DNA of 62,383 bases from Bacteroidota bacterium. Its GTDB lineage: Bacteria; Bacteroidota; Bacteroidia; Bacteroidales; UBA7960. Location: NCBI GenBank assembly GCA_007693555.1, contig REDJ01000116.1, positions 1 to 62,383 of the forward strand, written 5' to 3'. The translations under genes were made by a program, and so were the position numbers. This document shows, one piece after another, positions 1,292 to 15,838 of this stretch (position 1 is the stretch's first letter; each line of letters opens with the position of its first letter). Below the pieces are notes generated by a model. It was not told the origin of the DNA. It ran no database searches and saw only the letters and a program-made list of their open reading frames with translations.

Positions 1292-3076
1292 ATGAAAAAA
1301 CTTTATTATGCCGTCGTCTTAACTATAATGTCGGTGATTGTTTGTGCACAGCCCCCGGCAAAATTCAGCTACCAGGCTGTGATTCGTGATGCTGATAAAA
1401 ACCTGGTTACCAATGAGACAGTAGGTATGCAGATCAGCATATTACAAGGTGCACCAGATGGAACTGTGGTGTATATTGAAACCAAAAATCCTGTTACCAA
1501 CGCCAATGGTTTAGTTAACCTTGAAATTGGTTCTGAAACCGGATTTGAACTCATTGACTGGGCCGATGGACCCTTTTTCATCAAAACCGAAACCGACCTT
1601 ACCGGTGGAACAGATTATACCATATCCGGTTTGAGTCAGCTTTTAAGCGTGCCTTATGCCTTGTATGCAGAAGAAAGCGGCACCCCCGGCCCGGAAGGCC
1701 CGCCCGGACCTGAGGGTCCTCCCGGCCCAGAAGGTGAACCCGGAACCACACTATGGGAAGATGGCAATGATGTGGTTACAACTTTTGCTGATGTGGGAAT
1801 TGGCACCCAGCAACCCAATGCATTGCTTCATACCTTTGGTGAAGGTGTTGGTGGTGGAAATGTGTTGTTTGTGGGAGAGGTTACTTCAACAGATCCCGGA
1901 GATCCGCCGGCCTGGGGCTCTGGTACGCGCATGTTCTGGTATCCCAATAAGGCTGCCTTCCGCGCTGGCAGGGTGATTGGAAATGTATGGGATAAGGACA
2001 GCATCGGTTTTTATTCTTATGCTTTGGGATACAATGTACTGGCTTCAGATTATGGCTCAGTTGCATTAGGTGTTGGACCACGGGCTGAAAGTCCTCAGGC
2101 ATTTGCAATGGGATATTACTCCAAAGCCACAGGCTTCAGTTCCTTTGCCATGGGTTATATGGCCAAAGCAAAAGTAAGTCGTTCTTTTGCATTAGGTTAT
2201 AAAACTGAAGCCAATGCTATCGGTGCTTTTGCCTTAGGAAAAGAAACAATTGCGTCTGGCAGTTATGCCGTAGCTATGGGAAATGAAACCCATGCCTCCG
2301 GGGCTTATTCCTTTGCGGTTGGGGATAGCTCTTTAGCACAAGGTAATAATTCTGTTGCTATGGGATATCATTCAAATGCTGTTCATGCTGGCTCCATAGC
2401 AATTGGTTATGAAGCCAATGCATCAGGGGCCTGGGGGGTAGCTCTGGGCAATAATTCGACAGCTTCCGGTAATTCATCTTTTGCTGTTGGCTTAAATAAC
2501 GAGGCATCAGCAATTTCATCCACTGCATTGGGTAGTTTTTCAACCGCTTCCGGTGAACGTTCTACTGCTATTGGTGTAAGTGCAAATGCAATGGGAGATT
2601 ATTCCATTGCCTTGGGGCGTTCAGCAAATGCTTGGTTAAATTATTCTTTTGCCATCAACCTCGCTGCTGATGCCGGGCCGTTTGTTGCGGCTAATACATT
2701 TCGAATATCCGGAGCATCATCCATTGGAGGTAACCTCCCCTGGACAAATTACAGCGATGTAAGGCTGAAAAAGGAAATCCAGCCTATTTCCTCCGATAAT
2801 AACCTGCAAAAGATCATGCAGCTCAACGGCGTCAGGTTTCGCTGGAAAAAGCATGATAAAAAAATCAATCTGGGTTTTATTGCCCAGGATGTATCGGTTA
2901 TTATTCCCGAAAGTGTAAGATATGATGAATACAATGACATTTATTCCATGGAAAATACAGCCATAATACCGGTACTTGTAGAAGCCATGAAGGAACAACA
3001 GCAGCAAATTGAAGAGCAAAGCCGGCTTATTGATGAATTGATGGAAAGACTGGAAAAACTTGAAAACAGCCAATAA
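1292..3076 (+). CDS. Secreted fibre-like protein: YadA-type head repeats with C-terminal S74 chaperone domain
   Basis: This encodes 594 residues from ATG 1292; the frame is open further upstream, but only this start gives a clean signal peptide (residues 1-20, ending VCAQ). The order is: an N-terminal beta-rich domain (about 21-125, beginning FSYQAVIRDAD), a short collagen-like Gly-Pro-Glu stretch (about 130-150), about fifteen repeats of 14 residues of the YadA-head kind (about 237-463, such as SYALGYN, SFAMGYM, SIAIGYE), then a C-terminal peptidase S74 intramolecular chaperone domain (from SDVRLKKEI, about 488) ending in a coiled coil. S74 domains in phage tail spikes trimerise the fibre and then cut themselves off at the Ser-Asp junction; the Ser and a nearby Lys are both present. 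A trimeric surface or secreted adhesin is inferred. It has no T9SS tail and no autotransporter barrel, so its route across the outer membrane is unclear. It shares its N-terminal domain with the gene at 3806. Confidence 0.8.
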   Translation: MKKLYYAVVLTIMSVIVCAQPPAKFSYQAVIRDADKNLVTNETVGMQISILQGAPDGTVVYIETKNPVTNANGLVNLEIGSETGFELIDWADGPFFIKTETDLTGGTDYTISGLSQLLSVPYALYAEESGTPGPEGPPGPEGPPGPEGEPGTTLWEDGNDVVTTFADVGIGTQQPNALLHTFGEGVGGGNVLFVGEVTSTDPGDPPAWGSGTRMFWYPNKAAFRAGRVIGNVWDKDSIGFYSYALGYNVLASDYGSVALGVGPRAESPQAFAMGYYSKATGFSSFAMGYMAKAKVSRSFALGYKTEANAIGAFALGKETIASGSYAVAMGNETHASGAYSFAVGDSSLAQGNNSVAMGYHSNAVHAGSIAIGYEANASGAWGVALGNNSTASGNSSFAVGLNNEASAISSTALGSFSTASGERSTAIGVSANAMGDYSIALGRSANAWLNYSFAINLAADAGPFVAANTFRISGASSIGGNLPWTNYSDVRLKKEIQPISSDNNLQKIMQLNGVRFRWKKHDKKINLGFIAQDVSVIIPESVRYDEYNDIYSMENTAIIPVLVEAMKEQQQQIEEQSRLIDELMERLEKLENSQ

Positions 3077-3210: not shown

Positions 3211-3705
3211 ATGAAGACAAAAACTTTACAACCCGTATGTATGCTTTTGGCATTGAGCTTATGCTTTTCTATGGCTCAGGCACAGCAAACCATACCGGCC
3301 AGCGGTGGCGAAGGCCAGGGCAGTGGTGGTTCGGTCAGCTATTCGGTAGGGCAGCTGTTCTGGCATACCCACGACGGAAACAATGGATCAGTAGCAGAAG
3401 GAGTGCAGCAACCCTACGAAATCTCAGTGGTTACTGCCATTGATGAAGCTGAAGGAATACACCTTACGGTTATGGCTTATCCCAATCCAGCTGCTGATTT
3501 TCTAACACTAAAAGTGAAAGAATTCGAACCCTCATCCTTTCAGTATCATTTGTATGATATTAATGGAAAATTATGGAAAAGTGAGAAGATAACCGGGCAT
3601 CACACAAAAATTGATGTGAGCTTTCTTGCTCCTGGTGCCTACTTTTTAAAAGTAACGCAGGAGAATAAAGATTTTAAAACATTTAAGATCATTAAAACTC
3701 AATGA
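3211..3705 (+). CDS. Small secreted protein with T9SS type A sorting domain
   Basis: This is 164 residues with a signal peptide (1-25, ending AQAQ). A short Gly/Ser-rich segment (SGGEGQGSGGSVSYSVGQ) leads into a C-terminal sorting domain of about 75 residues that starts with YPNPAADFL and ends with FKTFKIIKTQ. This is the usual T9SS type A pattern: a YPNP-like opening, a central YDINGK strand and a GAYFLKV strand. The protein should cross the inner membrane by Sec and the outer membrane by the type IX system, then be anchored or released. The mature part is too short to hold a recognised enzyme domain; similar short SYSVGQ-plus-CTD proteins are common in Bacteroidota beside larger surface proteins. 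The gene sits 134 bp after the fibre gene in the same direction and may be co-transcribed with it. Confidence 0.8.
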   Translation: MKTKTLQPVCMLLALSLCFSMAQAQQTIPASGGEGQGSGGSVSYSVGQLFWHTHDGNNGSVAEGVQQPYEISVVTAIDEAEGIHLTVMAYPNPAADFLTLKVKEFEPSSFQYHLYDINGKLWKSEKITGHHTKIDVSFLAPGAYFLKVTQENKDFKTFKIIKTQ

Positions 3706-3743
3706 GACAGTATTTTTTAGAAAAAAATGCGTAGTCGAATTAG

Positions 3744-3767
3744 TCCCGATAGCGAAGCGTATCGGGA
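3744..3767. repeat. Dispersed palindrome tcccgata...tatcggga
   Basis: Perfect 8-bp arms with an 8-nt spacer lie between the T9SS protein and the next gene. There is no T-run after the hairpin. The cccgatannnntatcggg motif is a familiar intergenic repeat in Bacteroidota, so I treat it as a repeat. Confidence 0.5.
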
Positions 3768-3805
3768 ACAAACTAAAACGAAGTTTTAATTAAAAAATAA
3801 AACCG

Positions 3806-4717
3806 ATGAAAAAATTATTCACAATATTAGCTGTTGCATTATTAGCAGTAAGTGTGTTCGCTCAAGCACCCGAAAAAATGACCTACCAGGCTGTGGTACG
3901 TGATGCAGATGATAATCTGATTACAAATCATGGGGTGGGTATGCAAATAAGCATTCTGCAGGGCTCAGCCACAGGAACGGCTGTTTTCGCAGAACGCCAT
4001 TTTCCCACCACAAATACCAATGGTTTGGTAACCCTTGAAATTGGTGATGGTGCCCATGTAAGCGGTAATTTTGCCGATATCGACTGGGCAAACGGACCCT
4101 ATTTCATCAAAACCGAAACAGACCTGCATGGGGGAGCAAATTATACCATAACCGGCACCAGCCCTTTGCTGAGTGTACCGTATGCATTGTATGCAAAAAA
4201 TGTGAAGACCTTTCAGGTGGGTGACTTTGCCCACGGTGGCATTGTGTTTTATCTTGAGCCTTGCGGAACAAAGGGGCTTGTGGCTGCCAAAAACGACCAG
4301 AGTACCGGAGTAAGGTGGTTTGCCGGTAGTATTGGTAACACACAAGCTAAAGGAGACGGACCGTATGCTGGGAAAGCTAATACTTCAATAATTATTGCAT
4401 CTCAGGTAGCTATTGGTGATGACAATAACACTTATGCTGCACGTATATGTAATGAGCTGCAAGTTACCGAAGACGCAATAACCTATGGCGACTGGTACCT
4501 GCCCTCAAAAGAGGAATTAAACCTGATGTGGGAAAATAAGGCAGTAATTGATTCCACAGCTATTGCTAACGGGGGCAGTTCTTTTGGCAGTAACTACTAT
4601 TGGAGTTCTACTGAGACCAATGCCTTTCGCGCATGGGGACAGCTTTTTAGTACTGGTAGTCAGGTCTTTAGCGAAAAGGACGAAACAGACAGAGTTCGTG
4701 CCATTCGGGCTTTTTAG
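3806..4717 (+). CDS. Secreted protein with DUF1566 (Lcl) C-terminal domain
   Basis: This is 303 residues with signal peptide 1-19 (ending VFAQ). Residues 20-130 are clearly paralogous to the N-terminal domain of the protein at 1292: both have TYQAV or SYQAV, RDAD, VGMQISILQG, NGLV and YALYA at matching places. The C-terminal half (about 138-303) is a DUF1566/Lcl-type domain, with GGIVFYL, GDWYLPSKEELNLMW, YYWSSTE and a final VRAIRAF. These folds resemble C-type-lectin or FGE-like sheets and are common in secreted Bacteroidota proteins; their ligand is not known. There is no T9SS tail. The shared N-terminal domain suggests that one export or docking mode serves both neighbours, which is an inference. 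Confidence 0.8.
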   Translation: MKKLFTILAVALLAVSVFAQAPEKMTYQAVVRDADDNLITNHGVGMQISILQGSATGTAVFAERHFPTTNTNGLVTLEIGDGAHVSGNFADIDWANGPYFIKTETDLHGGANYTITGTSPLLSVPYALYAKNVKTFQVGDFAHGGIVFYLEPCGTKGLVAAKNDQSTGVRWFAGSIGNTQAKGDGPYAGKANTSIIIASQVAIGDDNNTYAARICNELQVTEDAITYGDWYLPSKEELNLMWENKAVIDSTAIANGGSSFGSNYYWSSTETNAFRAWGQLFSTGSQVFSEKDETDRVRAIRAF

Positions 4718-5063
4718 TCCTTTAACAATGCTTTATTGGCTAATGATAAGCTGTCTTTTTAATCCTAGAATCAGCTTTTTTCAGGAAAAATTTAATTTCC
4801 TATCCAACCTTTTTAAGAATAATTAGCAAGGCCCTCAAACCTAATATACTTACTTTTGACATCTGAACGGCTAAGTTCCTGCAGCAATTGATTTTTAAGG
4901 GGATAGCAGGAAACTTCTTTTGGATAAACCTTGGGATTCGTTTAAAATATAAGATATCATTATCCGAATTATTATTTTTTAAAAATTATAATTCTAATCT
5001 GTTGCAAACTATTTGCTTCGAACCGGGTTGTTCACAACAACCATAATTTTCTAAATAATAAAT
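4718..5063. other. Intergenic stretch before the efflux operon
   Basis: 346 bp, AT-rich, with no convincing coding frame or terminator hairpin. TACTTTTG at 4851-4858 fits the Bacteroidota -7 consensus and could start the efflux operon transcript, but no TTG lies at the right spacing. Confidence 0.4.
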
Positions 5064-6149
5064 ATGAAATTCAAACCTGTTTTTATCATTTTGGTGGTAA
5101 TAGCACTTGCAGGCATCATTTTTTACCCCAAAATCCAGCCACTGTTTTCAGATGAACCCGAAGCACCGGTTCCCGGCCCTGCCATGGGCACGCGTGCACT
5201 CAATGTTGAAGCCATCCGTCTGGAGCCAAGTCGACTGGTGGAATTTATTAATATTCCGGGTACCCTGATACCTGACGAGCAGGTTGATCTGTCATTTGAG
5301 ACTACAGGTAAGATTGTAAATATCAACTTCGACGAAGGAACACCTGTTCGCAGAGGGCAGTTGCTGGCCAAGATCAACGATCGACATTTACAGGCACAGC
5401 TTCTGAAACTGCAGGCTCAGAAAAAGCTTGCCGAAGAGCGTGAGTTTCGTCAACGAAGCCTGCTTTCGCGCGATGCCATAAGCCAGGAAAGCTATGATCA
5501 GGCGGTGACCGAACTGCAATCGCTGGAAGCTGATATACAGCTTCTTGAGGCTCGTATTGCCGAAACCGAGCTCAGAGCGCCTTTTGATGGTGTTATCGGT
5601 TTACGGCATGTGAGCGAGGGTGCTTTTGCCAATCCTAATACCCAGATTGCCCGTTTGATAAAAAATGACCCGTTGAAAATCGAATTTGCCATCCCTGAGC
5701 GTTATGCAGGAGAAATCGATGTTGGCTTTCCACTTAGTTTTGTGCTGGATGGTAATCCTGATACACACGTAGCAAGGGTTTATGCTGTTGATCCCAAGGT
5801 AGATGTAAGAACCCGCAATATTACAATAAGGGCTCGCTATAACAATCCAGGAGCAAGAATAAAACCCGGAAGGTTTGTTTCCATCCAACTTGAGCTGGCA
5901 GAGATTGATGATGCAATTGCCATCCCATCAGAAGCGCTTATTCCGGAAATGGATGGTGACAGGGTTTTCGTGTATCGAAATGGCAGAGCCGAATCTATTG
6001 GAGTTACAACTGGTTTGCGTACTGAAGATATGATTCAGATTACTTCAGGGCTACAACCTGGTGATACGCTTATTACTACAGGTATATTGCAATTACGACA
6101 GGGAATGTCGGTTGTTATTGATAATTTATCAGAGTCACCACAAATATGA
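5064..6149 (+). CDS. RND efflux periplasmic adaptor subunit
   Basis: This is 361 residues, typical for the membrane fusion protein of tripartite RND pumps. Residues 1-22 form an uncleaved or cleaved N-terminal membrane segment. A lipoyl-like half-motif (GKIVNINFDEGTPVRRGQLL, about 88-107) is followed by a helical hairpin (about 110-165), the second lipoyl half (LRAPFDGVIG, about 169-178) and beta-barrel and membrane-proximal domains. It links the inner-membrane pump to the TolC channel. The stop codon overlaps the start of the pump gene by 4 nt (ATGA), so the two are translationally coupled in one operon with the TolC gene after them. There is no lipobox, unlike AcrA. Substrate is not predictable. 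Confidence 0.92.
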   Translation: MKFKPVFIILVVIALAGIIFYPKIQPLFSDEPEAPVPGPAMGTRALNVEAIRLEPSRLVEFINIPGTLIPDEQVDLSFETTGKIVNINFDEGTPVRRGQLLAKINDRHLQAQLLKLQAQKKLAEEREFRQRSLLSRDAISQESYDQAVTELQSLEADIQLLEARIAETELRAPFDGVIGLRHVSEGAFANPNTQIARLIKNDPLKIEFAIPERYAGEIDVGFPLSFVLDGNPDTHVARVYAVDPKVDVRTRNITIRARYNNPGARIKPGRFVSIQLELAEIDDAIAIPSEALIPEMDGDRVFVYRNGRAESIGVTTGLRTEDMIQITSGLQPGDTLITTGILQLRQGMSVVIDNLSESPQI

Positions 6150-9100
6150 GTCTTTCATCCTTAAGCATACAACGCCCGGTATTGGCAACGGTATTTACCA
6201 TTATTATTCTTTTGTTCGGGTTTATAGGAATGACATTTCTGGGAGTGCGCGAATTCCCAAGTGTTGACCCGCCAATTATATCTGTAAGAACTTCCTACCC
6301 GGGTGCCAACTCTGATGTGATTGACGCCCAGATCACCGAACCGTTGGAGCAAGCCATCAATGCAGTACCCGGTATACGTACCATAACCAGTGTGAGCCGG
6401 CAGGGAAGCAGTAATATCACTGTAGAGTTTGAGCTGAGTGTAGATATGGAAACCGCGGCCAATGATGTACGCGATAAAGTTGCCCAGGCCCAGCGACGTT
6501 TGCCACGCGATGTGGACCCTCCCATAGTTTCCAAGGCCGATGCCGATGCAAGCCCCATCATGTTTATCAACATCCAGAGCGACAGGCGTTCTCTTACAGA
6601 GCTTTCCGAATTTGCCGAACTTACATTTCAGGAGCGTTTGCAAACCATTGATGGTGTAAGCTCGGTACCCATCTGGGGACAAAGACGCTGGAGTATGCGT
6701 CTGTGGATGGACCCTGCAAAGCTTGCCGGCTATAACCTTACTCCGCTGGATGTACGCAATGCTATTATGCGCGAAAACGTGGAGTTGCCATCCGGAAGCA
6801 TCGAAGGTACCGCTACAGAACTAACCATTCGCACATTGGGATTGCTTACCACTCCAGTCGAATTTGATAATCTCATTATACACCAGGAAGGCGATCAGAT
6901 TGTACGTTTTATGGATATTGGCCGGGCAGAACTGGGTTCTGAAAACCTGCGCAGTATCCTTATGAGAGACCGGATACCTATGGTGGGTGTTGCCATCATC
7001 CCTCAGCCCGGATCTAATCATATTGATATTGCTGATGAGGTTTACCGCAGGCTGGAACATATTCAGAGAGACCTGCCTGATGATCTGTTTTACCAGGTGG
7101 GCTTTGACAATACCAGATACATTCGTTCATCCATTGTGGAAGTACGCAATACAATCTTTATAGCTTTTATGCTTGTAGTGGTAATCATTTTCCTGTTTTT
7201 ACGTGACTGGCGCACTACGCTTATCCCCATCCTTGTAATTCCTGTATCCTTGGTGGGTTCATTCTTTATCATGTATGTTGCCGGGTTTACAATCAATGTG
7301 CTTACCCTGCTTGCTATTGTACTGGCAATCGGTCTTGTGGTGGATGATGCCATTGTAATGATGGAAAATATTTATGTGAAGATAGAGCAGGGGATGACGC
7401 CCAAACAAGCCGGATTAAAAGGTGCACAGGAAATTTTCTTTGCTATTATTGCCACAACCATTACACTGGTGGCTGTTTTTATTCCTATCGTTTTCCTTGA
7501 AGGAATGACCGGAAGGTTATTCCGCGAGTTTAGCATTGTAATAGCAGGTGCTGTAGCGATTTCTTCGTTTGTGGCGCTCACTTTTACTCCTATGCTCTCT
7601 ACCAAGATACTTAAACAGAGAAAAGAACGTGGTGCTTTGTACAAAAAAACCGAAGTATTCTTTACATCAATGAATCAAACCTATAAAAATTCATTGGAGA
7701 ATTTTCTTTCACGTCGCTGGTTGGTATTTCCCGTTCTTCTTGCTGCGGTGGGGTTGATTGTATTATTATACACAAATATCCCTGCAGAGATGGCACCTCT
7801 CGAAGACCGCTCGCAGATTACAATAAATGCTCAAACACCCGAAGGTGCCACTTTTGAGTTTACCCGGGATTATATTTTTAATATTGCCGAAATGGTTATG
7901 GAAGAGGTTCCTGAGGTGGAAGGTGTGATTTATATGGTTTTTGGTAGCTGGGCAAATGTAAGGGTTATTCTGGTTCCACCATCTGAAAGGCAAAGATCAC
8001 AGCAGGAAATTGCCGATCATCTCTCGGCCAGAGTCAGGCAGATGACACGTGCCCGCGCATTTGTATTGCAGCAATCTACATTTGGAGGCCGGCGTTCAGG
8101 CATGCCTGTTCAGTATGTTTTACAGGCGCAGAACATTGAACGACTAAGGGAAGTTCTTCCTGATTTTATGGAAAAGGTTGATGATAGTGAAATACTACAG
8201 ATGGCTAATGTAAACCTGCGCTTCACGAAACCTGAAATACAGGTATCCATAAACCGTGATAAGGCCAACCTGATGGGTGTTTCCACGCAGAATATCGGGC
8301 AAACACTCCAGCTGGCATTGTCCGGGCAGCGGTTTGGTTATTTCTTCATGCATGGTAAACAATACCAGATACTTGGCGAGCTGGCCCGCGAAAACCGCAA
8401 TACACCTCTCGACCTGAAATCGCTTTACGTGCGTAATAACCATGGTGATATGATACAGTTGGATAACCTTGTTACATTGCAGGAACAAACCGCCCCACCA
8501 CAATTGTATCGTTTCAATCGTTTTGTATCAGCAACAGTTTCTTCCGGACTTGCAACGGGTTATACCATTGGCGATGGGATTGAGGAGATGAACCGTATAG
8601 CTGATGAAGTACTTGATGAAACTTTCCGCACCACACTTGCAGGCGACTCAAGGGATTTCCAGGAAAGTGCGTCAAGCCTTATGTTTGCCTTTTTGTTTGC
8701 TTTGGTTCTGATCTTCCTGGTGCTTTCAGCACAGTTTGAAAGTTTCAGGGATCCTCTTATTGTTATGATGACAGTTCCGCTTGCATTAACCGGTGCATTG
8801 TTCTTTATGTGGTACTTTGATATTACTTTGAATATCTTCAGCCAGATTGGTATCATTATGCTTATCGGACTGGTATCCAAGAACGGTATCCTCATGGTGG
8901 AATTTGCCAACCAGCGCAAGCAACAAGGAATGGAAAAAATGGCAGCCATCAAATTTGCAGCTGCTGCACGTTTTCGTCCCATACTTATGACCAGTCTTTC
9001 CACAATTTTGGGAGTTTTACCCCTTACCCTGGGAATGGGTGAAGGTGCTCAAAGCCGTATTGCTATGGGTGTGGCTGTTATTGGTGGTTTGATTATTGCC

Positions 9101-9196
9101 ACTTTCCTTACTCTTTATGTGGTGCCTGCAATTTATTCCTATGTTTCCAGTTCAAAAAAGAATATTGATGATGAACCCATTGAAACTGTTGTTTAG
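6146..9196 (+). CDS. RND efflux transporter permease (AcrB/MexF-like)
   Basis: This is 1016 residues, full length for the HAE1-type RND family. It has the N-terminal membrane helix (1-35), two large periplasmic loops and two bundles of membrane helices. The proton-relay Asp pair of helix 4 is present in GLVVDDAIVMMEN (about residue 399), and the pattern SKNGILMVEFAN marks the helix 10 region. Multidrug or lipid export driven by the proton gradient is the family role. The GAKQY-like and GEFxxF loops that mark particular substrates are not distinctive, so no substrate is claimed. It lies second in the adaptor-pump-TolC operon and overlaps both neighbours (4 nt upstream, 26 nt downstream), which suggests tight co-expression. 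No dedicated regulator gene is adjacent. Confidence 0.93.
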   Translation: MSLSSLSIQRPVLATVFTIIILLFGFIGMTFLGVREFPSVDPPIISVRTSYPGANSDVIDAQITEPLEQAINAVPGIRTITSVSRQGSSNITVEFELSVDMETAANDVRDKVAQAQRRLPRDVDPPIVSKADADASPIMFINIQSDRRSLTELSEFAELTFQERLQTIDGVSSVPIWGQRRWSMRLWMDPAKLAGYNLTPLDVRNAIMRENVELPSGSIEGTATELTIRTLGLLTTPVEFDNLIIHQEGDQIVRFMDIGRAELGSENLRSILMRDRIPMVGVAIIPQPGSNHIDIADEVYRRLEHIQRDLPDDLFYQVGFDNTRYIRSSIVEVRNTIFIAFMLVVVIIFLFLRDWRTTLIPILVIPVSLVGSFFIMYVAGFTINVLTLLAIVLAIGLVVDDAIVMMENIYVKIEQGMTPKQAGLKGAQEIFFAIIATTITLVAVFIPIVFLEGMTGRLFREFSIVIAGAVAISSFVALTFTPMLSTKILKQRKERGALYKKTEVFFTSMNQTYKNSLENFLSRRWLVFPVLLAAVGLIVLLYTNIPAEMAPLEDRSQITINAQTPEGATFEFTRDYIFNIAEMVMEEVPEVEGVIYMVFGSWANVRVILVPPSERQRSQQEIADHLSARVRQMTRARAFVLQQSTFGGRRSGMPVQYVLQAQNIERLREVLPDFMEKVDDSEILQMANVNLRFTKPEIQVSINRDKANLMGVSTQNIGQTLQLALSGQRFGYFFMHGKQYQILGELARENRNTPLDLKSLYVRNNHGDMIQLDNLVTLQEQTAPPQLYRFNRFVSATVSSGLATGYTIGDGIEEMNRIADEVLDETFRTTLAGDSRDFQESASSLMFAFLFALVLIFLVLSAQFESFRDPLIVMMTVPLALTGALFFMWYFDITLNIFSQIGIIMLIGLVSKNGILMVEFANQRKQQGMEKMAAIKFAAAARFRPILMTSLSTILGVLPLTLGMGEGAQSRIAMGVAVIGGLIIATFLTLYVVPAIYSYVSSSKKNIDDEPIETVV

Positions 9197-10496
9197 CAGC
9201 TTATTGATCCTTGCTTTTTCATACTACGGTGCTATTGCACAGCAGTATCTCACATTGCATGAGTTTATTGATATTGCTCTTGAACAGAATTACTCTTTAC
9301 GTATAGTAAAAAACCAGGAAAGGATTGCCGGCAATAACTTTACCCGGGGAAATGCCGGGATGTTACCCAGTCTGGATTTAAGATCATCATTTTCCGGAAA
9401 TATAAATAATACCAATCAGAATCTTCGCGACGGGAATGAGTTCAGCATGCGGGGAATTCACAACACCACATTCAATAACGCCTTACAGGGAAGCTGGATG
9501 CTTTTCGATGGTTTCAGAGGGCAAATACGTTATGCTCAATTGGAGGAGCTGAAAAATATGAGTGAGCTTAATACGCGTATTCAGATTGAAAACCTGATTG
9601 CCCGTTTGGCTTCCGAGTATTACTTCTACATACAACAAACCCAGCAGTTTTCAAATTTACAGTATGCTGTTGATATTTCCAGGGAACGTTTACGTATTGA
9701 GCAAGAGCATTTTTTGTTGGGTTCCGGCTCCAAGGTTACTCTTTTACAGGCTGAGGTTACGCTTAATGCCGACAGTTCCCGCCTGGAGCTACAGTATGAA
9801 GTGCTCAGAGCCTCGCGTATCAGACTGGCGGAATTGATGGCTTTACCTGATCTTTCTGAAAATATTTTGCCTGCCGATACTTCTATAATGGTAAATCCGG
9901 GTCTGATGTATGCCGAATTGAAGGACGATGTTTTTAAACAGAATGCTTCTGTTCTTGCAGCCTATCAAAACAGAAAAATCAGTGAGTATGAGCTGGAATT
10001 GATCCGGTCGCGTACTTACCCTTATTTGAATCTGAGTTCGGGATATGGATATACTTTCAGCACATCGCAAAGCGCAGCATGGGAAAATCAACATTCGTGG
10101 GGTATGAACTATGGTATTACTGTGGGAATAAACCTTTACGATGGCCGCAACCTGCAACGACAAAAAAGCAATGCCCGCATAGAACTCGAAAACCGCGATC
10201 TTATTCTTGAACGTACAAAACAGGAGTCAACCGCTGATTTGCTTACTATTTACAATGTCTACGCCAACAACCTTCGTTTGCTCGATCTTGAAACCCAGAA
10301 CCTGGCAGCTGCCCGCGAAAATGTAGAAATAGCCTTTGATCGTTATCGCCTTGGTGCTCTCTCCGGTTTTGAGTTGCGCGAGGTTCAGAAAAATCTCCTT
10401 GAAGCTGAAGAACGCCTTCTCTCCATTCAGTACCAGGCCAAAATGGCTGAGATAAGCCTGTTGCAAATTTCAGGAAGGATACTGGAAAGCTTTTAA
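9171..10496 (+). CDS. TolC-family outer membrane efflux protein
   Basis: This is 441 residues from ATG 9171 (an ATG also sits at 9168). The frame is open upstream to 9096, but that extension is the pump's own coding sequence read in another frame; the inner start gives a proper signal peptide (MNPLKLLFSSLL...AIAQQ). The mature protein has the two OEP repeats of long alpha-helical hairpins joined by short beta strands, for example SSFSGNINN and NLYDGRNLQRQKSN. It forms the trimeric outer-membrane channel of the pump encoded just upstream, with a 26-nt gene overlap. Helix-rich, Gln/Glu-rich segments near the C-terminus (LRLLDLETQNLAAAREN) match the periplasmic tunnel. It ends before a hairpin repeat at 10521, and the hydrolase that follows probably has its own transcript. 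Confidence 0.9.
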   Translation: MNPLKLLFSSLLILAFSYYGAIAQQYLTLHEFIDIALEQNYSLRIVKNQERIAGNNFTRGNAGMLPSLDLRSSFSGNINNTNQNLRDGNEFSMRGIHNTTFNNALQGSWMLFDGFRGQIRYAQLEELKNMSELNTRIQIENLIARLASEYYFYIQQTQQFSNLQYAVDISRERLRIEQEHFLLGSGSKVTLLQAEVTLNADSSRLELQYEVLRASRIRLAELMALPDLSENILPADTSIMVNPGLMYAELKDDVFKQNASVLAAYQNRKISEYELELIRSRTYPYLNLSSGYGYTFSTSQSAAWENQHSWGMNYGITVGINLYDGRNLQRQKSNARIELENRDLILERTKQESTADLLTIYNVYANNLRLLDLETQNLAAARENVEIAFDRYRLGALSGFELREVQKNLLEAEERLLSIQYQAKMAEISLLQISGRILESF

Positions 10497-10520
10497 AGAT
10501 GTTTTTTTGATTTTGACTTG

Positions 10521-10549
10521 TCGGGGTGCGACTCTAAGTCGCGCCCCGA
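10521..10549. repeat. Perfect long palindrome, REP-like (13-bp arms)
   Basis: Arms 10521-10533 and 10537-10549 pair throughout with one G-T pair, leaving a 3-nt loop (cta). No T-run follows on either strand, so it is unlikely to be a terminator. It resembles the weaker palindrome at 889-920 and is taken as a dispersed intergenic element. Confidence 0.6.
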
Positions 10550-10636
10550 ATCAACCGTGCGAACTTTTATATAGATAACTTGTTAATATCGGCAAAGCAT
10601 TAGTTTTTTTCCAGCCAACCAATAAAATACAATTCT

Positions 10637-12058
10637 ATGAAATTTTTCTTTACTTTTTCATTACTTTTTTCTTTTCTTTTCGTCCCAACTACTTACAGCC
10701 AATATGTTAATAGTGTTGAATTTATTTCTTCAGCATCAGCTGATGAAATTTCCGAACTATTGGATTATGATGTAGATAATGGTGCTCATTTCTATAAAAT
10801 GACCTATCATACCACCGGTTCAGATGGCATGTCCGATATTGCATCGGGATTAATTGTGATTCCTGATAATATGGCCAATGAGTATCCGCTGGTAATATAC
10901 CATCATGGTACCAGCCCGGCAAGAGATGAGGTTCCATCATCATTGAGTCTTGATTTTGAAGCATATGCCGGCATCGGGGCAAGTGGTTATGCAGTGCTGG
11001 CTCCCGATTACCTTGGGATGGGCGATTCAAGAGGGTTCCATCCATATGTTCATCGCGAAACCCAGGCCAGAGCCTCAGTCGATATGCTCAAGGCATTTCA
11101 CGAATGGCTTGAAGGAGAAGACTATGCTGTAAATCATAAACTATTTCTGACCGGCTATTCACAGGGAGGTCATGCATCCATGTCAACTCACAAGGAACTT
11201 GAGCTCAACCATTCTGCAGAGTTCACCGTAACTGCGGCTACTCACTTGTCAGGCCCTTACAGTATTTCAGGTGTGATGCGCGATTTGATGTTCAGTGAAA
11301 CGAACTATCTTTACGTCGGATTTATTCCCTACCTTATTCTTGGTTATCAGGAGGTGTATGGTAATGTGTATGAGGACCTCACTGATATTTTTCAGCCGGT
11401 GTTTATCCCCTCTATTGAAGCATTTTATAACGGGCAGATAAACCTTATTGATCTTACCATTGCACTTATATTTCTCTCTGCTCAAAATTACGGTAACAGC
11501 TACCCGGTCACAATATTTAATCCGGAACTGGTAGCTGAAATGACCTCTGATGATAATCATCCTCTTAATGTTATTTTGCGTGAAAATGATACTTTCAACT
11601 GGGCACCACAAGCTCCTACCCGCATATTCTATTGTTTGGCTGATGATATGGTTCCTTTTGAAAATTCTATTGTTGCCGATTCTGTCATGCAGGCAAATGG
11701 CGCTCTTGATCTGGTATCAGAAAACCTCAGTTCCACAATGGGGCACGGGGAATGCGCATTTCCAGCATTGCTCGAAACTGTTGAATTTTTCAATGGCTTT
11801 ATTGAGACCTCCACAGAACAGATAGCTTTTCACAGCCAATTAAGCTTGTATCCCAATCCAACGGATGGCAGGATAATAATCTCCGGTTTATCTGATTTTG
11901 AAAGTTATAATCTTCAGGTAGTTGATATCTCGGGCAAAGTTCTTATGAGCCAGGTTTTATCCTCTGAAATCAATTTGGACCATCTGCAATCGGGGGTATA
12001 TTTTCTAAGAATAAGTGGAAATAGTGGTGTTATAACCCATAAGGTTATCAGGAATTAA
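10637..12058 (+). CDS. Secreted alpha/beta hydrolase (lipase/esterase-like) with T9SS sorting domain
   Basis: This is 473 residues with a signal peptide (1-21). The catalytic part (about 40-390) has the alpha/beta hydrolase features HHGTSPARDE (oxyanion region), DYLGMGDSRG, and the nucleophile elbow GYSQGGHAS. Overall it resembles fungal secretory lipases and the acyl hydrolases of the LIP family. A late Asp (LADDMVPFENS) and His (MGHGECAF) fit the rest of the triad. The last 75 or so residues are a T9SS type A domain (LYPNPTDGRI, VVDISGKVLMS, GVYFLRISG). It should act outside the cell or on its surface, cleaving esters of an unknown substrate. It is followed by a fresh promoter for ettA, so it is probably monocistronic. 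Confidence 0.85.
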   Translation: MKFFFTFSLLFSFLFVPTTYSQYVNSVEFISSASADEISELLDYDVDNGAHFYKMTYHTTGSDGMSDIASGLIVIPDNMANEYPLVIYHHGTSPARDEVPSSLSLDFEAYAGIGASGYAVLAPDYLGMGDSRGFHPYVHRETQARASVDMLKAFHEWLEGEDYAVNHKLFLTGYSQGGHASMSTHKELELNHSAEFTVTAATHLSGPYSISGVMRDLMFSETNYLYVGFIPYLILGYQEVYGNVYEDLTDIFQPVFIPSIEAFYNGQINLIDLTIALIFLSAQNYGNSYPVTIFNPELVAEMTSDDNHPLNVILRENDTFNWAPQAPTRIFYCLADDMVPFENSIVADSVMQANGALDLVSENLSSTMGHGECAFPALLETVEFFNGFIETSTEQIAFHSQLSLYPNPTDGRIIISGLSDFESYNLQVVDISGKVLMSQVLSSEINLDHLQSGVYFLRISGNSGVITHKVIRN

Positions 12059-12107
12059 TACCATTCTCTGTGGGTTACAGATATTAAGGATATTCATAAA
12101 CCTTCAT

Positions 12108-12115
12108 TATCTTTG
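12108..12115 (+). promoter_or_regulatory. Bacteroidota -7 element for ettA
   Basis: TATCTTTG, followed by CACC, is a full match to TAnnTTTG and lies 77 bp before the ettA start. No clear TTG box is seen at 19-21 bp. Confidence 0.55.
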
Positions 12116-12191
12116 CACCTGATAAACAGGAAAATTATTTAAACTGCAGCATCAAAAGCCTGTTGATGTTCTCAAACTCTTTTATTATTAT

Positions 12192-13868
12192 ATGAGCGAC
12201 GACAAAAAGATCATTTTCTCCATGGTTGGAGTAGGTAAAGTATTCCCTCCATCCAAACAGGTATTGAAAGACATTTACCTGTCGTTTTTTTATGGTGCCA
12301 AGATTGGTATTATTGGTTTGAACGGTTCGGGTAAATCAACCCTCATGCGCATCATCGCCGGAGAGGAGAAATCCTTTCAGGGTGAAGTGGCATTTTCTCC
12401 CGGTTATTCTGTAGGATACCTTGCCCAGGAGCCCTATCTTGATAATACCAAAACCGTTAAAGAGATTGTTGAAGAAGGAGTTCAGAATGTGGTGGATATC
12501 ATGAAGGAATACGAAGAGGTGAACATGAAGTTTTCCGAACCCATGAGCGATGATGAAATGACAAAACTCATTGAGCGTCAGGGCGAACTATCCGATCTTG
12601 TTGAGCAGTATAACGGATGGGATCTTGACAGCCGCCTGGAGCGTGCCATGGATGCCCTCCGTTGCCCCGATCCCGGTGAAAAGATTGAACACCTGAGCGG
12701 GGGAGAACGTCGCCGTGTGGCACTTTGCCGGTTGCTTCTGAAGGAACCGGATATTCTTTTACTTGATGAGCCTACCAACCACCTGGACGCCGAGTCGGTA
12801 GAATGGCTCGAGGTGCACCTCAAGCAATACAAAGGAACCGTAATTGCCATTACACACGACCGCTATTTCCTTGATAACGTTGCCGGATGGATACTTGAGC
12901 TGGACAGGGGAGAAGGCATACCCTGGAAGGGGAATTACAGCAGCTGGCTCGAGCAAAAATCCAAGCGCCTTGCCCAGGAAGAAAAATCGGAAAGCAAACG
13001 GCGCAAAACCCTGGAACGGGAGCTCGAGTGGGTGCGCATGAACCCCAAAGGCCGTCAGGCCAAAGCCAAAGCCAGGCTTAATGCCTACGACAAGCTTCTC
13101 AATGAAGATATAAAACAAAAGGAAGAACGACTTGAAATATTTATTCCCAATGGTCCGAGGCTGGGCTCCAAAGTAGTAGAGGCGCACGGGATTACAAAAG
13201 CATTTGGGGATAAACTACTTTTTGAGAATTTCTCATTCTCCCTGCCACCGGCAGGTATTGTGGGTATCATTGGCCCCAATGGCGCCGGCAAAACTACCCT
13301 CTTCCGCATGCTCATGGGGCAGGAGAAACCTGATAAAGGTAATTTTGAATTGGGTGAAACAGTCCAGTTAGGCTATGTGGATCAGGCACATGTGGAAATT
13401 GATCCTGAAAAGTCTGTCTGGCAGGTTATATCGGGGGGTAATGAAACCATTGCCCTGGCCGGTAAGCAGTTTAACAGCAGGGCCTATGTGGCCAGGTTTA
13501 ACTTCAGCGGGGCAGATCAAGGTAAAAAATGTGGAGTATTATCCGGTGGAGAGCGCAACCGTCTGCATCTGGCCATGACATTGCGCAGCGAAGCCAATGT
13601 TCTTCTGCTTGATGAGCCAACCAACGATATTGATGTGAATACGCTGAGAGCTCTGGAAGAAGGGCTCGAAAACTTTGCCGGGTGTGCCGTGATCATCACA
13701 CACGACCGCTGGTTTCTTGACAGAGTGGCAACACATATTATTGCTTTTGAGGGAAACTCAGAAGTTGTGTTCTTTGAAGGATCATATTCCGAATATGAAG
13801 AGAACAGAAAAAAACGTATGGGCGATACAGGCCCAAAAAGAATCAAATACAGAAAGCTTATAGCTTAA
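12192..13868 (+). CDS. ettA: Energy-dependent translational throttle protein EttA (ABC-F)
   Basis: This is 558 residues, the usual EttA length. It has two ABC domains in one chain and no membrane segments. The first has Walker A GLNGSGKST (about 44-52), signature LSGGERRR and Walker B LLLLDEPTNHLD; the second has Walker A GPNGAGKTT, signature LSGGERNR and DEPTNDID. The linker (about 240-310) is basic, as expected for the P-site tRNA interaction motif. EttA binds the ribosomal E site and throttles the first steps of elongation when ADP is high. The last residues (GPKRIKYRKL) match the EttA C-terminus. Only 5 bp separate it from the sigma-54 regulator, so the two are probably co-transcribed. 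Another ABC-F protein (Uup or YheS type) is less likely because the length and linker fit EttA. Confidence 0.93.
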   Translation: MSDDKKIIFSMVGVGKVFPPSKQVLKDIYLSFFYGAKIGIIGLNGSGKSTLMRIIAGEEKSFQGEVAFSPGYSVGYLAQEPYLDNTKTVKEIVEEGVQNVVDIMKEYEEVNMKFSEPMSDDEMTKLIERQGELSDLVEQYNGWDLDSRLERAMDALRCPDPGEKIEHLSGGERRRVALCRLLLKEPDILLLDEPTNHLDAESVEWLEVHLKQYKGTVIAITHDRYFLDNVAGWILELDRGEGIPWKGNYSSWLEQKSKRLAQEEKSESKRRKTLERELEWVRMNPKGRQAKAKARLNAYDKLLNEDIKQKEERLEIFIPNGPRLGSKVVEAHGITKAFGDKLLFENFSFSLPPAGIVGIIGPNGAGKTTLFRMLMGQEKPDKGNFELGETVQLGYVDQAHVEIDPEKSVWQVISGGNETIALAGKQFNSRAYVARFNFSGADQGKKCGVLSGGERNRLHLAMTLRSEANVLLLDEPTNDIDVNTLRALEEGLENFAGCAVIITHDRWFLDRVATHIIAFEGNSEVVFFEGSYSEYEENRKKRMGDTGPKRIKYRKLIA

Positions 13869-13873
13869 TAAAC

Positions 13874-15838
13874 ATGATTACCCCTGATAACACTACCGCA
13901 CAAACAGAATTAATCACGGCTTCTCACAAAAGAAGTCGTGACTGGGGTGTGGATACAGGTGTTGTAAATCCCTCGCTGGTGCTTTCTGAGAGCGCATTTA
14001 AGCTCAGTCGCGAACGTAATCAGCGCCTGATCAGTATTGCTGTCCCCTTTGTTAAACTGCTTCACGAATTTGTAGCTGACAGCGGATTTATCATTTTACT
14101 TACTGATGAAAAAGGATATATCCTCGAAATTGCCGGGCATCAGAAAACACTTGATGAAATCAGATCCTATAATATTATTCCGGGTGCCTGCATGGGTGAA
14201 AAAAGCATTGGAACGAATGCCATAAGTATTGCTCTGGATAAGAATATTGCCGTTCAACTGACAGGAAAGGAACATTATGCTGAAATCTTTCACAACTGGA
14301 GTTGCTCTGCTGCACCCGTTCATGATGAAAAGGGTAACATTTTAGGTTGCTTAAATATCAGCGGATATATTGATAAAGTATATCCGCATATTTTGGGTTT
14401 AATAGTGGCTTCAGTTAAAGCCATTGAGTTTCAGCTTAAAAGCTCATACTCCGAAATGCGTCAAAAGGAAGCATACCGATTTGTTTCTCAAATACTTAAC
14501 ACTCTTGAATTCGGAGTATTGGGTACAGATGTTTCAGGAACAGTAAAACGGACTAATAATATTACCTCCAGACTTTTTCGCTTACCTGTTGAGCAAATTG
14601 AAAATAAAAATCTTGGGGATTTTGTACCTGAATGGCCTAAGCTTTTTGCTCAGGTCAGAAACAATGAAGTCATATTGGATGAAGAAGTTCAGGTAAGCCG
14701 GTTTGGTGTTCGTGAAACACTTAGCCTGAGCGCATATCCGCTTACCGACGGTGAAGGCAATATCAATGGTTCGGTTGTTACTTTGCGCGATATGAAACGG
14801 GTTTATAAAATGGTGAATAAATATACCGGCATGCAGGCCCGTTATAATTTTGATGATTTGATAGGTGAGAGTGACGAAATGAAAAGAATCATCGAATATT
14901 GCCGCAGTATTTCAGACAGCCCCAGTACTGTATTGATCCAGGGTGAAAGTGGAACAGGCAAGGAAGTGCTGGCACAATCTATTCACAACTTCAGCTCAAG
15001 ACGCGACAACGGTTTTGTGGCACTTAACTGCGGCGCAATACCTGAAACCCTTATAGAAAGTGAATTATTCGGATATACCGAAGGTGCCTTTACCAGTGCA
15101 AAAAAAGGAGGTAAACCCGGAAAATTTGAACTCGCCAATGGTGGCACTCTTTTCCTTGATGAAATCGGTGAAATGCCTCCCGATATGCAGGTGAAATTGC
15201 TGAGAGCACTTCAGGAGAAAGCCATTACAAGGGTAGGGGGCGATAAACTTATACCTGTAGATGTCAGGATCATTGCTGCTACCAATAAAAATCTGCTGGA
15301 AGAAATAAAAAAAGGAAAGTTTCGGCAAGACCTGTATTACAGGCTTAGCGTTATTCCGGTTTATATTCCCCCCTTGCGAAAACGAAGGGAAGATATTCCT
15401 ATGCTGATAAATTTCTTTCTGAATTTAAAATCAGTGAAGCTTCGTAAACAGCTTCCGGATATGGACAACAGGCTTTTTAAAAAACTGGTATATCACAACT
15501 GGCCGGGTAATGTAAGAGAATTGGAAAACTTTATTGAAAAATATGTAAACCTGAATGGTAAAATCGGATGGTCTGATGAAATTATGAATCCTGATGCTTT
15601 CAGGGAATCTGCAGGCATAGAAGATGATGCTGCAGAAAAGAAAACCCATATCTCAGGTTCGGATATATCAACTGATATGGAAAACAAAGAAGTATCTTCA
15701 TTATCAGAACTGGAAAAAACAGCCATCATACATGCTGTAAAGGTGTATAACAGAAATATGACCAGGGTAGCAAAAGCTTTGGGTATCAGTAGAAATGCTT
15801 TATATCAGAAGATAAAAAAGTTTGAACTTGATATATAA
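13874..15838 (+). CDS. Sigma-54-dependent transcriptional activator (GAF-PAS-AAA+-Fis)
   Basis: This is 654 residues, built like AcoR/DhaR activators. Residues 1-60 carry the SHKRSRDWGVD entry helix, about 60-190 are a GAF sensor, about 200-310 a PAS domain, about 325-560 the AAA+ domain, and 610-654 a Fis-type helix-turn-helix. In the AAA+ part, Walker A is GESGTGKE, Walker B is GGTLFLDEIGEMP, and an arginine-finger region follows. The loop that contacts sigma-54 reads GAFTSA where the usual form is GAFTGA, so the second Gly is Ser. The protein should open sigma-54 promoters when the GAF or PAS ligand is bound; the ligand is not known. It sits 5 bp after ettA. No acetoin or aldehyde operon is nearby, so its targets are probably elsewhere, or in the 16.3-17.0 kb gap (inference only). 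Confidence 0.9.
   Translation: MITPDNTTAQTELITASHKRSRDWGVDTGVVNPSLVLSESAFKLSRERNQRLISIAVPFVKLLHEFVADSGFIILLTDEKGYILEIAGHQKTLDEIRSYNIIPGACMGEKSIGTNAISIALDKNIAVQLTGKEHYAEIFHNWSCSAAPVHDEKGNILGCLNISGYIDKVYPHILGLIVASVKAIEFQLKSSYSEMRQKEAYRFVSQILNTLEFGVLGTDVSGTVKRTNNITSRLFRLPVEQIENKNLGDFVPEWPKLFAQVRNNEVILDEEVQVSRFGVRETLSLSAYPLTDGEGNINGSVVTLRDMKRVYKMVNKYTGMQARYNFDDLIGESDEMKRIIEYCRSISDSPSTVLIQGESGTGKEVLAQSIHNFSSRRDNGFVALNCGAIPETLIESELFGYTEGAFTSAKKGGKPGKFELANGGTLFLDEIGEMPPDMQVKLLRALQEKAITRVGGDKLIPVDVRIIAATNKNLLEEIKKGKFRQDLYYRLSVIPVYIPPLRKRREDIPMLINFFLNLKSVKLRKQLPDMDNRLFKKLVYHNWPGNVRELENFIEKYVNLNGKIGWSDEIMNPDAFRESAGIEDDAAEKKTHISGSDISTDMENKEVSSLSELEKTAIIHAVKVYNRNMTRVAKALGISRNALYQKIKKFELDI

Follow-up and report, generated by a model that had tools for sequence, protein, structure and literature searches.

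A tail-less MAT-like fibre gene of a Bacteroidota genome and its small T9SS type A neighbour, a candidate split T9SS substrate

A gene for a 594-residue chimeric fibre that carries no T9SS sorting tail was found to stand directly before a gene for a small protein that does carry one, and such a T9SS gene beside tail-less fibres recurs across the genomes that were searched. We consider it probable that the T9SS substrate of this locus is split between two genes, with the small protein serving to export the tail-less fibre, to anchor it by its base with the tip outward, or to do both. With somewhat less assurance, we lean to the wider reading that this is a split-signal device of the whole phylum, in which phage-like trimeric fibres that lack a tail and have interchangeable tips are exported, and anchored at the base, by a type A carrier of ~55 residues. 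The fibre itself appears to belong to a kind of chimeric fibre that has already been described; the split T9SS arrangement would be the new part.

Genes and domains in the window

The window, which is the whole stretch of 62,383 nucleotides that was analysed, is contig C112 of a 4.23-Mb assembly of 247 contigs. It holds, in this order, a fibre gene ending in a Peptidase S74 domain, the small T9SS gene and a fibre gene with an Lcl_C-type tip. The features are listed below, where MAT (mosaic adhesive trimer) is the name given to chimeric surface fibres of Bdellovibrio (PMC10769870).

1292–3076, + strand: MAT-like fibre gene with an S74 C-terminus, 594 aa (open reading frame with Pfam and NCBIfam matches)
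1292–1348, + strand: putative signal peptide, residues 1–19, cut before Q20 (MKKLYYAVVLTIMSVIVCA/QPP, read by eye)
1349–1672, + strand: N-terminal base module, MAT-N-like, residues 20–127 (NF053851 match below cut-off; AF2 model)
1679–1744, + strand: short collagen-like Gly-X-Y stretch, residues 130–151 (PF01391, E 8e-4, below the Pfam cut-off)
2012–2638, + strand: YadA-head repeat region, about residues 241–449, limits approximate (PF05658, E 4.9e-35, 11 stretches)
2753–2917, + strand: Peptidase S74 domain, residues 488–542 (PF13884, E 1.1e-15)
3211–3705, + strand: small T9SS type A protein, 164 aa, proposed fibre carrier/anchor (PF18962, E 4e-14; TIGR04183)
3283–3450, + strand: N-terminal ~55-aa domain of the small protein, proposed fibre-binding part (profiles A4/A10)
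3475–3696, + strand: T9SS type A C-terminal sorting domain of the small protein (TIGR04183)
3806–4717, + strand: second MAT-like fibre gene, 303 aa, Lcl_C-type tip (Lcl_C, E 1.5e-10, residues 163–301)
3863–4195, + strand: base module of the second fibre (profile match)

The 594-residue frame opens with the ATG at 1292 and ends with the stop codon at 3074–3076; an upstream TTG at 1229 also opens the same frame. The frame and its matches to YadA_head and S74 lie far above chance, the Peptidase_S74 match reaching 58.1 bits against a Pfam cut-off of 22. The approximate limits of the head region were taken from an NCBIfam YadA match that starts at residue 241 and a PDB match to YadA that reaches residue 449. 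Sequence matches in the PDB were to YadA-type heads (BpaC, E 1.5e-21) and, weakly, to myelin regulatory factor for the S74 part (E 0.014). Families of phage tail fibres match the S74 and head regions. The motif SDVRLK, which fits SDxxxK, begins at S488 (2753–2755) and ends at K493 (2768–2770), and autocleavage is predicted to occur immediately before S488. From its domain families, the fibre is likely to be trimeric and self-cleaving.

The initial annotation had described this protein as a host-encoded fibre with YadA-head repeats, a short collagen-like stretch and a terminal S74 domain, and had seen on it neither an outer-membrane anchor nor a T9SS tail. All of these points are borne out by the domain matches; the MAT-like module at residues 20–127 had been overlooked. 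Neither a YadA membrane anchor nor a T9SS tail appeared among the Pfam matches to E = 1, a range in which the HMMER filters remove most matches above 0.1, or among the NCBIfam matches to E = 0.1. The fibre was thus rejected as a trimeric autotransporter (T5c), since the C-terminal YadA anchor is absent from the Pfam hits, and as a T9SS type A substrate in its own right, since a C-terminal sorting domain was found neither in the window fibres nor in their relatives with a complete 3' end. Loss of the Ser/Lys pair in orthologs, which the same annotation had named as something that would refute its reading, was seen in few cases. SDxxxK is kept in 40 of the 44 open reading frames that match S74 at E <1e-5; the other four are L118, which has SSxxxK, L203 and L140, which have no clear motif in place, and L023, which is truncated by the end of its contig.

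The base module was matched by NF053851, the profile of the MAT N-domain of Bdellovibrio, with E 3.8e-9 and 36.5 bits, which is below the 60-bit cut-off and covers positions 14–76 of 162. On the strength of this sub-cut-off match, residues 20–127 make the product of 1292–3076 look like a MAT-type chimeric fibre. The same profile matched all 78 base modules of alignment A8 (best E 4.9e-11), which comprises 76 of the 85 modules of set B, defined below, and the two of the window, alignment A6 being made up of 27 of the 47 modules of set A and the same two; the module of the second fibre is 67% identical to that of the first. The AF2 model of the module is a beta fold composed of strands, with a mean pLDDT of 86 and lower confidence in the last seven residues, which contain part of the most conserved motif of the module, LLSVPYALYA. 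Pfam Big_1 matched 28 of the 78 modules, weakly, and TIGR04183 matched a single one with E 0.0088, which was taken as chance. When fold relatives were sought, 997 chains were aligned, with a best Z of 7.5 (2yjl) followed mostly by chains of GH2 enzymes at Z 6–7; no fold relative is claimed, as values of 6–7.5 lie within the stated background of the tool. A viral library searched with the module yielded zero matches at E ≤0.001.

The sorting tail of the small protein was matched by TIGR04183 with 49.6 bits against a cut-off of 23. Its N-terminal domain of ~55 residues is conserved, and profile A10 of this domain was built from 62 of the 65 listed sequences, with L070, L130 and L146 omitted. The mean pLDDT of the AF2 model is ~38–44 across the first 40 residues, a very low confidence that would fit a domain that folds on its partner and, equally well, a poor model.

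The genes at 9–509 and 3211–15838 were scanned for domains; for the remainder of the window, only the open reading frames were read. The scanned genes are of ferredoxin, T9SS, Lcl_C, efflux, lipase, ABC and sigma-54 types, the five beyond the second fibre accounting for the last four kinds, and no phage structural genes were found among them. A secretory-lipase-type protein encoded at 10637–12058, ~7 kb downstream, has a T9SS type A tail of its own.

Proposed export of the fibre by its neighbour

The route to the surface, which the initial annotation had left open, is likely to be supplied by the T9SS type A gene one position downstream. The course of events that we infer, including its stoichiometry and the order of its steps, would be as follows. 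The 594-residue fibre would be exported by Sec as a base module, a short collagen-like neck, a YadA-type head and an S74 chaperone, the last of which probably steers trimerisation and then removes itself before S488. The small protein would use its ~55-residue domain to bind the base module of the fibre, either in the periplasm or at the translocon, and its sorting tail to carry the pair through SprA/PorV. The tail would then be cut off, presumably by the PorU sortase, and what is left of the partner, only ~55 residues, would be joined to surface LPS or released. In this way the N-terminal base would fix the fibre in place and leave its tip to point outward. If the fibre itself carried the T9SS tail, the tail would come to lie at the adhesive tip, and in S74 fibres self-cleavage would remove it; a small tail-bearing partner at the base would avoid both the tip position and the loss of the tail.

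The T9SS has been described as moving folded proteins (PMC9251779), and the type A tail as binding PorV and SprA within the pore, after which type A substrates are released or linked to LPS (PMC10994853).

If the proposal is correct, the T9SS, with its C-terminal cargo signal, could display fibres with the tip outward, and even the display of S74 fibres that shed their own C-terminus would become explicable. Split substrates would form an added class of T9SS-displayed surface proteins, a role would be explained for at least one family of tiny T9SS type A proteins, and the surface partner of the MAT base domain would gain a testable counterpart. T9SS cargo is recognised through its own C-terminal tail, and surveys that look for tails only would therefore miss such fibres.

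Pairing of fibre and small genes across genomes

The genome that contains the window has 7 S74 places, 6 strong base modules and 118 matches to T9SS tails, and its SprA (TIGR04189, 2694 bits) establishes the presence of the T9SS translocon. Eight of the 118 tails lie in frames of 200 aa or fewer. The small N-domain was found in four of these eight (C112, C65, C182 and C61), each of which adjoins a base-module gene or an S74 fibre gene, and the base-module gene on C105 has no small tail-bearing neighbour. On another contig of this genome (locus L020 of C117, 3–2985), two S74 genes are neighbours; the second shows YadA-head repeats by eye and no base module, and a repeat-rich gene, TPR-like by eye, comes next on the opposite strand.

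Set A consists of 59 genomes from 58 families of the order, with regions picked for holding a module or a partner hit. The base module was found in 40 of these genomes and the small N-domain in 33, all of which are among the 40 (Fisher 4.7e-10). For 47 of the 71 small-domain hits, a base module lies 314–654 nt downstream on the same strand; for the others, the module is upstream within 5 kb (6), on the opposite strand (1), 2.2 kb downstream (1) or absent (16). A wider profile gave 79 small-domain open reading frames, 28 of them with no fibre directly downstream, including 6 whose end is no more than 120 nt from that of the contig and 2 behind fibre frames truncated by the contig. Counted from the side of the fibres, 75 of 145 open reading frames have no tail-bearing neighbour, some owing to contig ends. 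The S74 fibres of set A are paired in 10 of 30 cases, or 11 if L138 is included, which is paired in the small-domain count and unpaired in the frame count because its two stop-to-stop frames overlap beyond the limit used. Seven of the 40 module genomes gave no partner hit with the first profile, and the wider profile located a partner next to a fibre in two of them (L070 of G005 and L130 of G027). In some genomes, numerous fibres stand against one or a few partners; G015, for example, has nine and one, respectively. SprA is encoded in 57 of the 59 genomes, and the two without it have neither the module nor the small domain.

For set B, a genome collection was scanned with nothing but the base module, and the best 80 loci were kept. 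Because selection was by the module only, linkage is tested more fairly here than in set A, yet set B contains the relatives closest to the window. Its records carry titles of Bacteroidota groups or Chlorobiota and are mostly metagenome-assembled; named members are Salibacter halophilus, Maribellus, Fluviicola, Flavivirga, Kordia and three Flavobacterium. The small gene stands immediately upstream, on the same strand, of 76 of the 85 fibre frames, including all six of those with S74. For the remaining nine, a different tail-bearing frame is upstream (3), there is insufficient room (2) or none was found (4). Loci L238, L266 and L277 are the set A contigs L089, L178 and L066 and were excluded from the distinct counts, which leaves 73 of 82 fibre frames paired.

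In a sample of 247 genomes across the phylum, the module was found in 56 genomes, the small domain in 30 and both in 29, so that 27 of the 56 module genomes gave no partner hit. Outside the genome of the window, 35 of 37 small-domain hits lie no more than 2.2 kb from a fibre module on the same strand: the module is less than 1.5 kb downstream in 27 and 1.5–1.7 kb downstream in 2, the small gene comes after the fibre in 6, and 2 are unlinked. SprA was detected in all 56 module genomes and in 134 of the 191 others (Fisher 9e-8), an association that is only suggestive and confounded by descent, since the SprA-negative genomes among those listed, beyond which there are 37 more, belong mostly to one family.

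The absence of a tail from the fibres was determined with a tail profile built from the partner frames and applied to frames with a complete 3' end. None of 132 complete fibres of set A and none of 78 of set B was matched (0 of 207 distinct frames over both sets), whereas the profile matched 70 of the 75 complete partners of set A and 75 of the 76 of set B. Among 150 fibre C-termini, the complete NCBIfam table contains no curated T9SS tail family, and neither do the 25 of 29 Pfam families listed; the statement rests on the NCBIfam table, which, unlike the Pfam listing, is complete. TIGR04183 matched all 74 partners of alignment A7 (73 of the 76 of set B and that of the window), a result that is partly circular, as A7 took partners already found by our own tail profile.

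Base modules and partners were also found to vary together. Two base subtypes go with two partner subtypes: two-way clustering of 115 distinct pairs gave 111 concordant (85 and 26) and 4 discordant pairs, and set A alone 41 of 45 concordant. Distances between modules correlate with those between small domains (r 0.82, the best of 300 permutations being 0.17) and with those between partner tails (0.72). Within 12 genomes or loci, the native pairing beat the swapped one in 20 of 27 comparisons, and in 14 of 14 where the margin exceeded 0.2. Joint duplication of linked genes accounts for the matched subtypes equally as well as cognate binding does.

These counts bear on the possibility that the small T9SS protein is secreted as an independent factor and has no more than the operon in common with the fibre, which would leave by another route. 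Such an arrangement would agree with the 75 fibres of set A that have no such neighbour, and with the result that the base module and the small domain were never found fused in one frame. We nevertheless regard it as unlikely: the ~55 residues left after removal of the tail would hardly make a stand-alone effector, no complete fibre has a tail of its own, and the small gene adjoins the fibre at most loci of set B and tracks the module in 33 of 33 genomes of set A and 29 of 30 of the phylum sample.

Members of the small family also occur away from fibres. At L080 (3259–4806) and L141 (3223–4695), two partner-type type A genes come after PorP/SprF-OmpA genes, with gaps of 25 and 4 nt, respectively, between the open frames, a possible link of the family to T9SS shuttles. 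The small N-domain is not confined to proteins of ~165 aa; in L163, L167 and L162 of genome G044, it heads longer repeat proteins that are SprB-like by eye.

Known fibres and secretion partners compared

MAT fibres have been described as having a conserved beta-rich domain of ~130 aa behind a signal peptide, with swapped tips, S74 ending 13 of 21 of them and SDxxxK being given as a motif of MAT proteins (PMC10769870). The window fibre resembles them in its putative signal peptide, the predicted beta-rich base that follows and the mosaic of tips among its relatives, some with S74 and SDxxxK. It differs in being paired with a T9SS type A gene, and in an NF053851 match that is confined to part of the profile and below its cut-off. 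In the text of PMC10769870, neither "T9SS" nor "Bacteroid" occurs.

The tips were surveyed at 150 C-termini (147 distinct) from 209 complete fibres, namely the two of the window, all 77 of set B and a random 71 of the 130 of set A. Among the 25 of 29 Pfam families listed, Lcl_C (34), Fib_succ_major (32) and S74 (23) were the most frequent, with single cases such as Collar, Kelch and GH16. The base modules of the relatives bear swappable tips (Lcl_C/FISUMP, S74, Collar, Kelch and others), as is characteristic of MAT fibres.

The authors of the MAT study suppose that an unknown surface element binds the N-terminal domain, and the Bdellovibrio fibres do reach the surface (PMC10769870). Both points would suit an arrangement in which the small protein serves as an anchor only, being exported alone and sitting on LPS while the fibre leaves separately and is caught outside by its base; the genetics would be the same as for a split substrate. 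This arrangement would need a second exporter in the outer membrane, and none was recognised as such among the scanned neighbours, which include efflux genes. We judge it improbable.

That the fibre stays in the periplasm or is bound to vesicles, with the T9SS pairing having some other meaning, recalls the MAT fibres that finish in a vesicle within the prey of Bdellovibrio (PMC10769870). This is very improbable, as the Lcl_C, FISUMP, S74 and Collar tips suit work at the surface and the recurrent T9SS neighbour would be hard to account for.

Least probable of all is that the gene is a remnant or domesticated fibre of a prophage or tailocin, as the phage-family matches of its S74 and head regions, and two of three module-bearing IMG/VR loci (one with the pair and a second with a tail-bearing neighbour), might suggest; the N-terminus is signal-peptide-like, the scanned window genes include no phage genes, and none of 50,697 phage records matches the base module of the window at E 1e-3, the last two results being the grounds on which this origin was rejected. 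Among the IMG/VR loci, L287 holds a full fibre and small-gene pair. In the viral-labelled L288 (IMGVR_UViG_3300034072_002231, 4467–5660), a small gene with a T9SS tail stands directly before a base-module gene; this may be a surface-fibre pair borne by a phage, or the contig may be misassigned.

For the split substrate that we favour, searches of open-licence papers brought up no description of a tail-less T9SS cargo with a small tail-bearing partner. The closest published analogues would be the type B pairs with PorP/SprF and Tat hitchhiking. In the former, as is proposed for the window, adjacent genes are cognate, and both secretion and anchoring depend on the pair (PMC12618676). In a type B pair it is the cargo that bears the tail, its partner being an outer-membrane PorP/SprF protein, whereas the cargo in the window is tail-less and its proposed partner a tiny type A substrate. 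The window genes were rejected as a type B pair on this ground and because the genes next downstream encode a type A protein and a fibre. Hitchhiking on Tat and piggyback import into peroxisomes (PMC9251779) resemble the proposal in that a protein without a signal crosses while bound to a partner that has one, but they concern other membranes and other machines.

Single parts of the fibre are shared more widely. YadA-type T5c autotransporters have the same head repeats, and the window fibre ends in S74 in place of their membrane anchor. The Ser-Lys pair of S74 is shared with phage fibres and spikes and with myelin regulatory factor, and phage tail-fibre families match the window fibre; it differs from these in being host-encoded, in its signal-peptide-like start and in its MAT-like base. 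Lcl of Legionella (NF046116) shares the Lcl_C tip with the second fibre (3806–4717), which differs in having a base module and a proposed T9SS partner and reaches 56.6 bits against the full-length cut-off of 500.

In some of the base-module proteins surveyed for their tips, enzyme-like ends of GH16, GDSL lipase and FGE-sulfatase types replace the adhesive tip. Fibre bases otherwise carry a single copy of the module; one 917-aa frame (L094; G014, contig C598, 2708–4984) has five tandem base-module hits.
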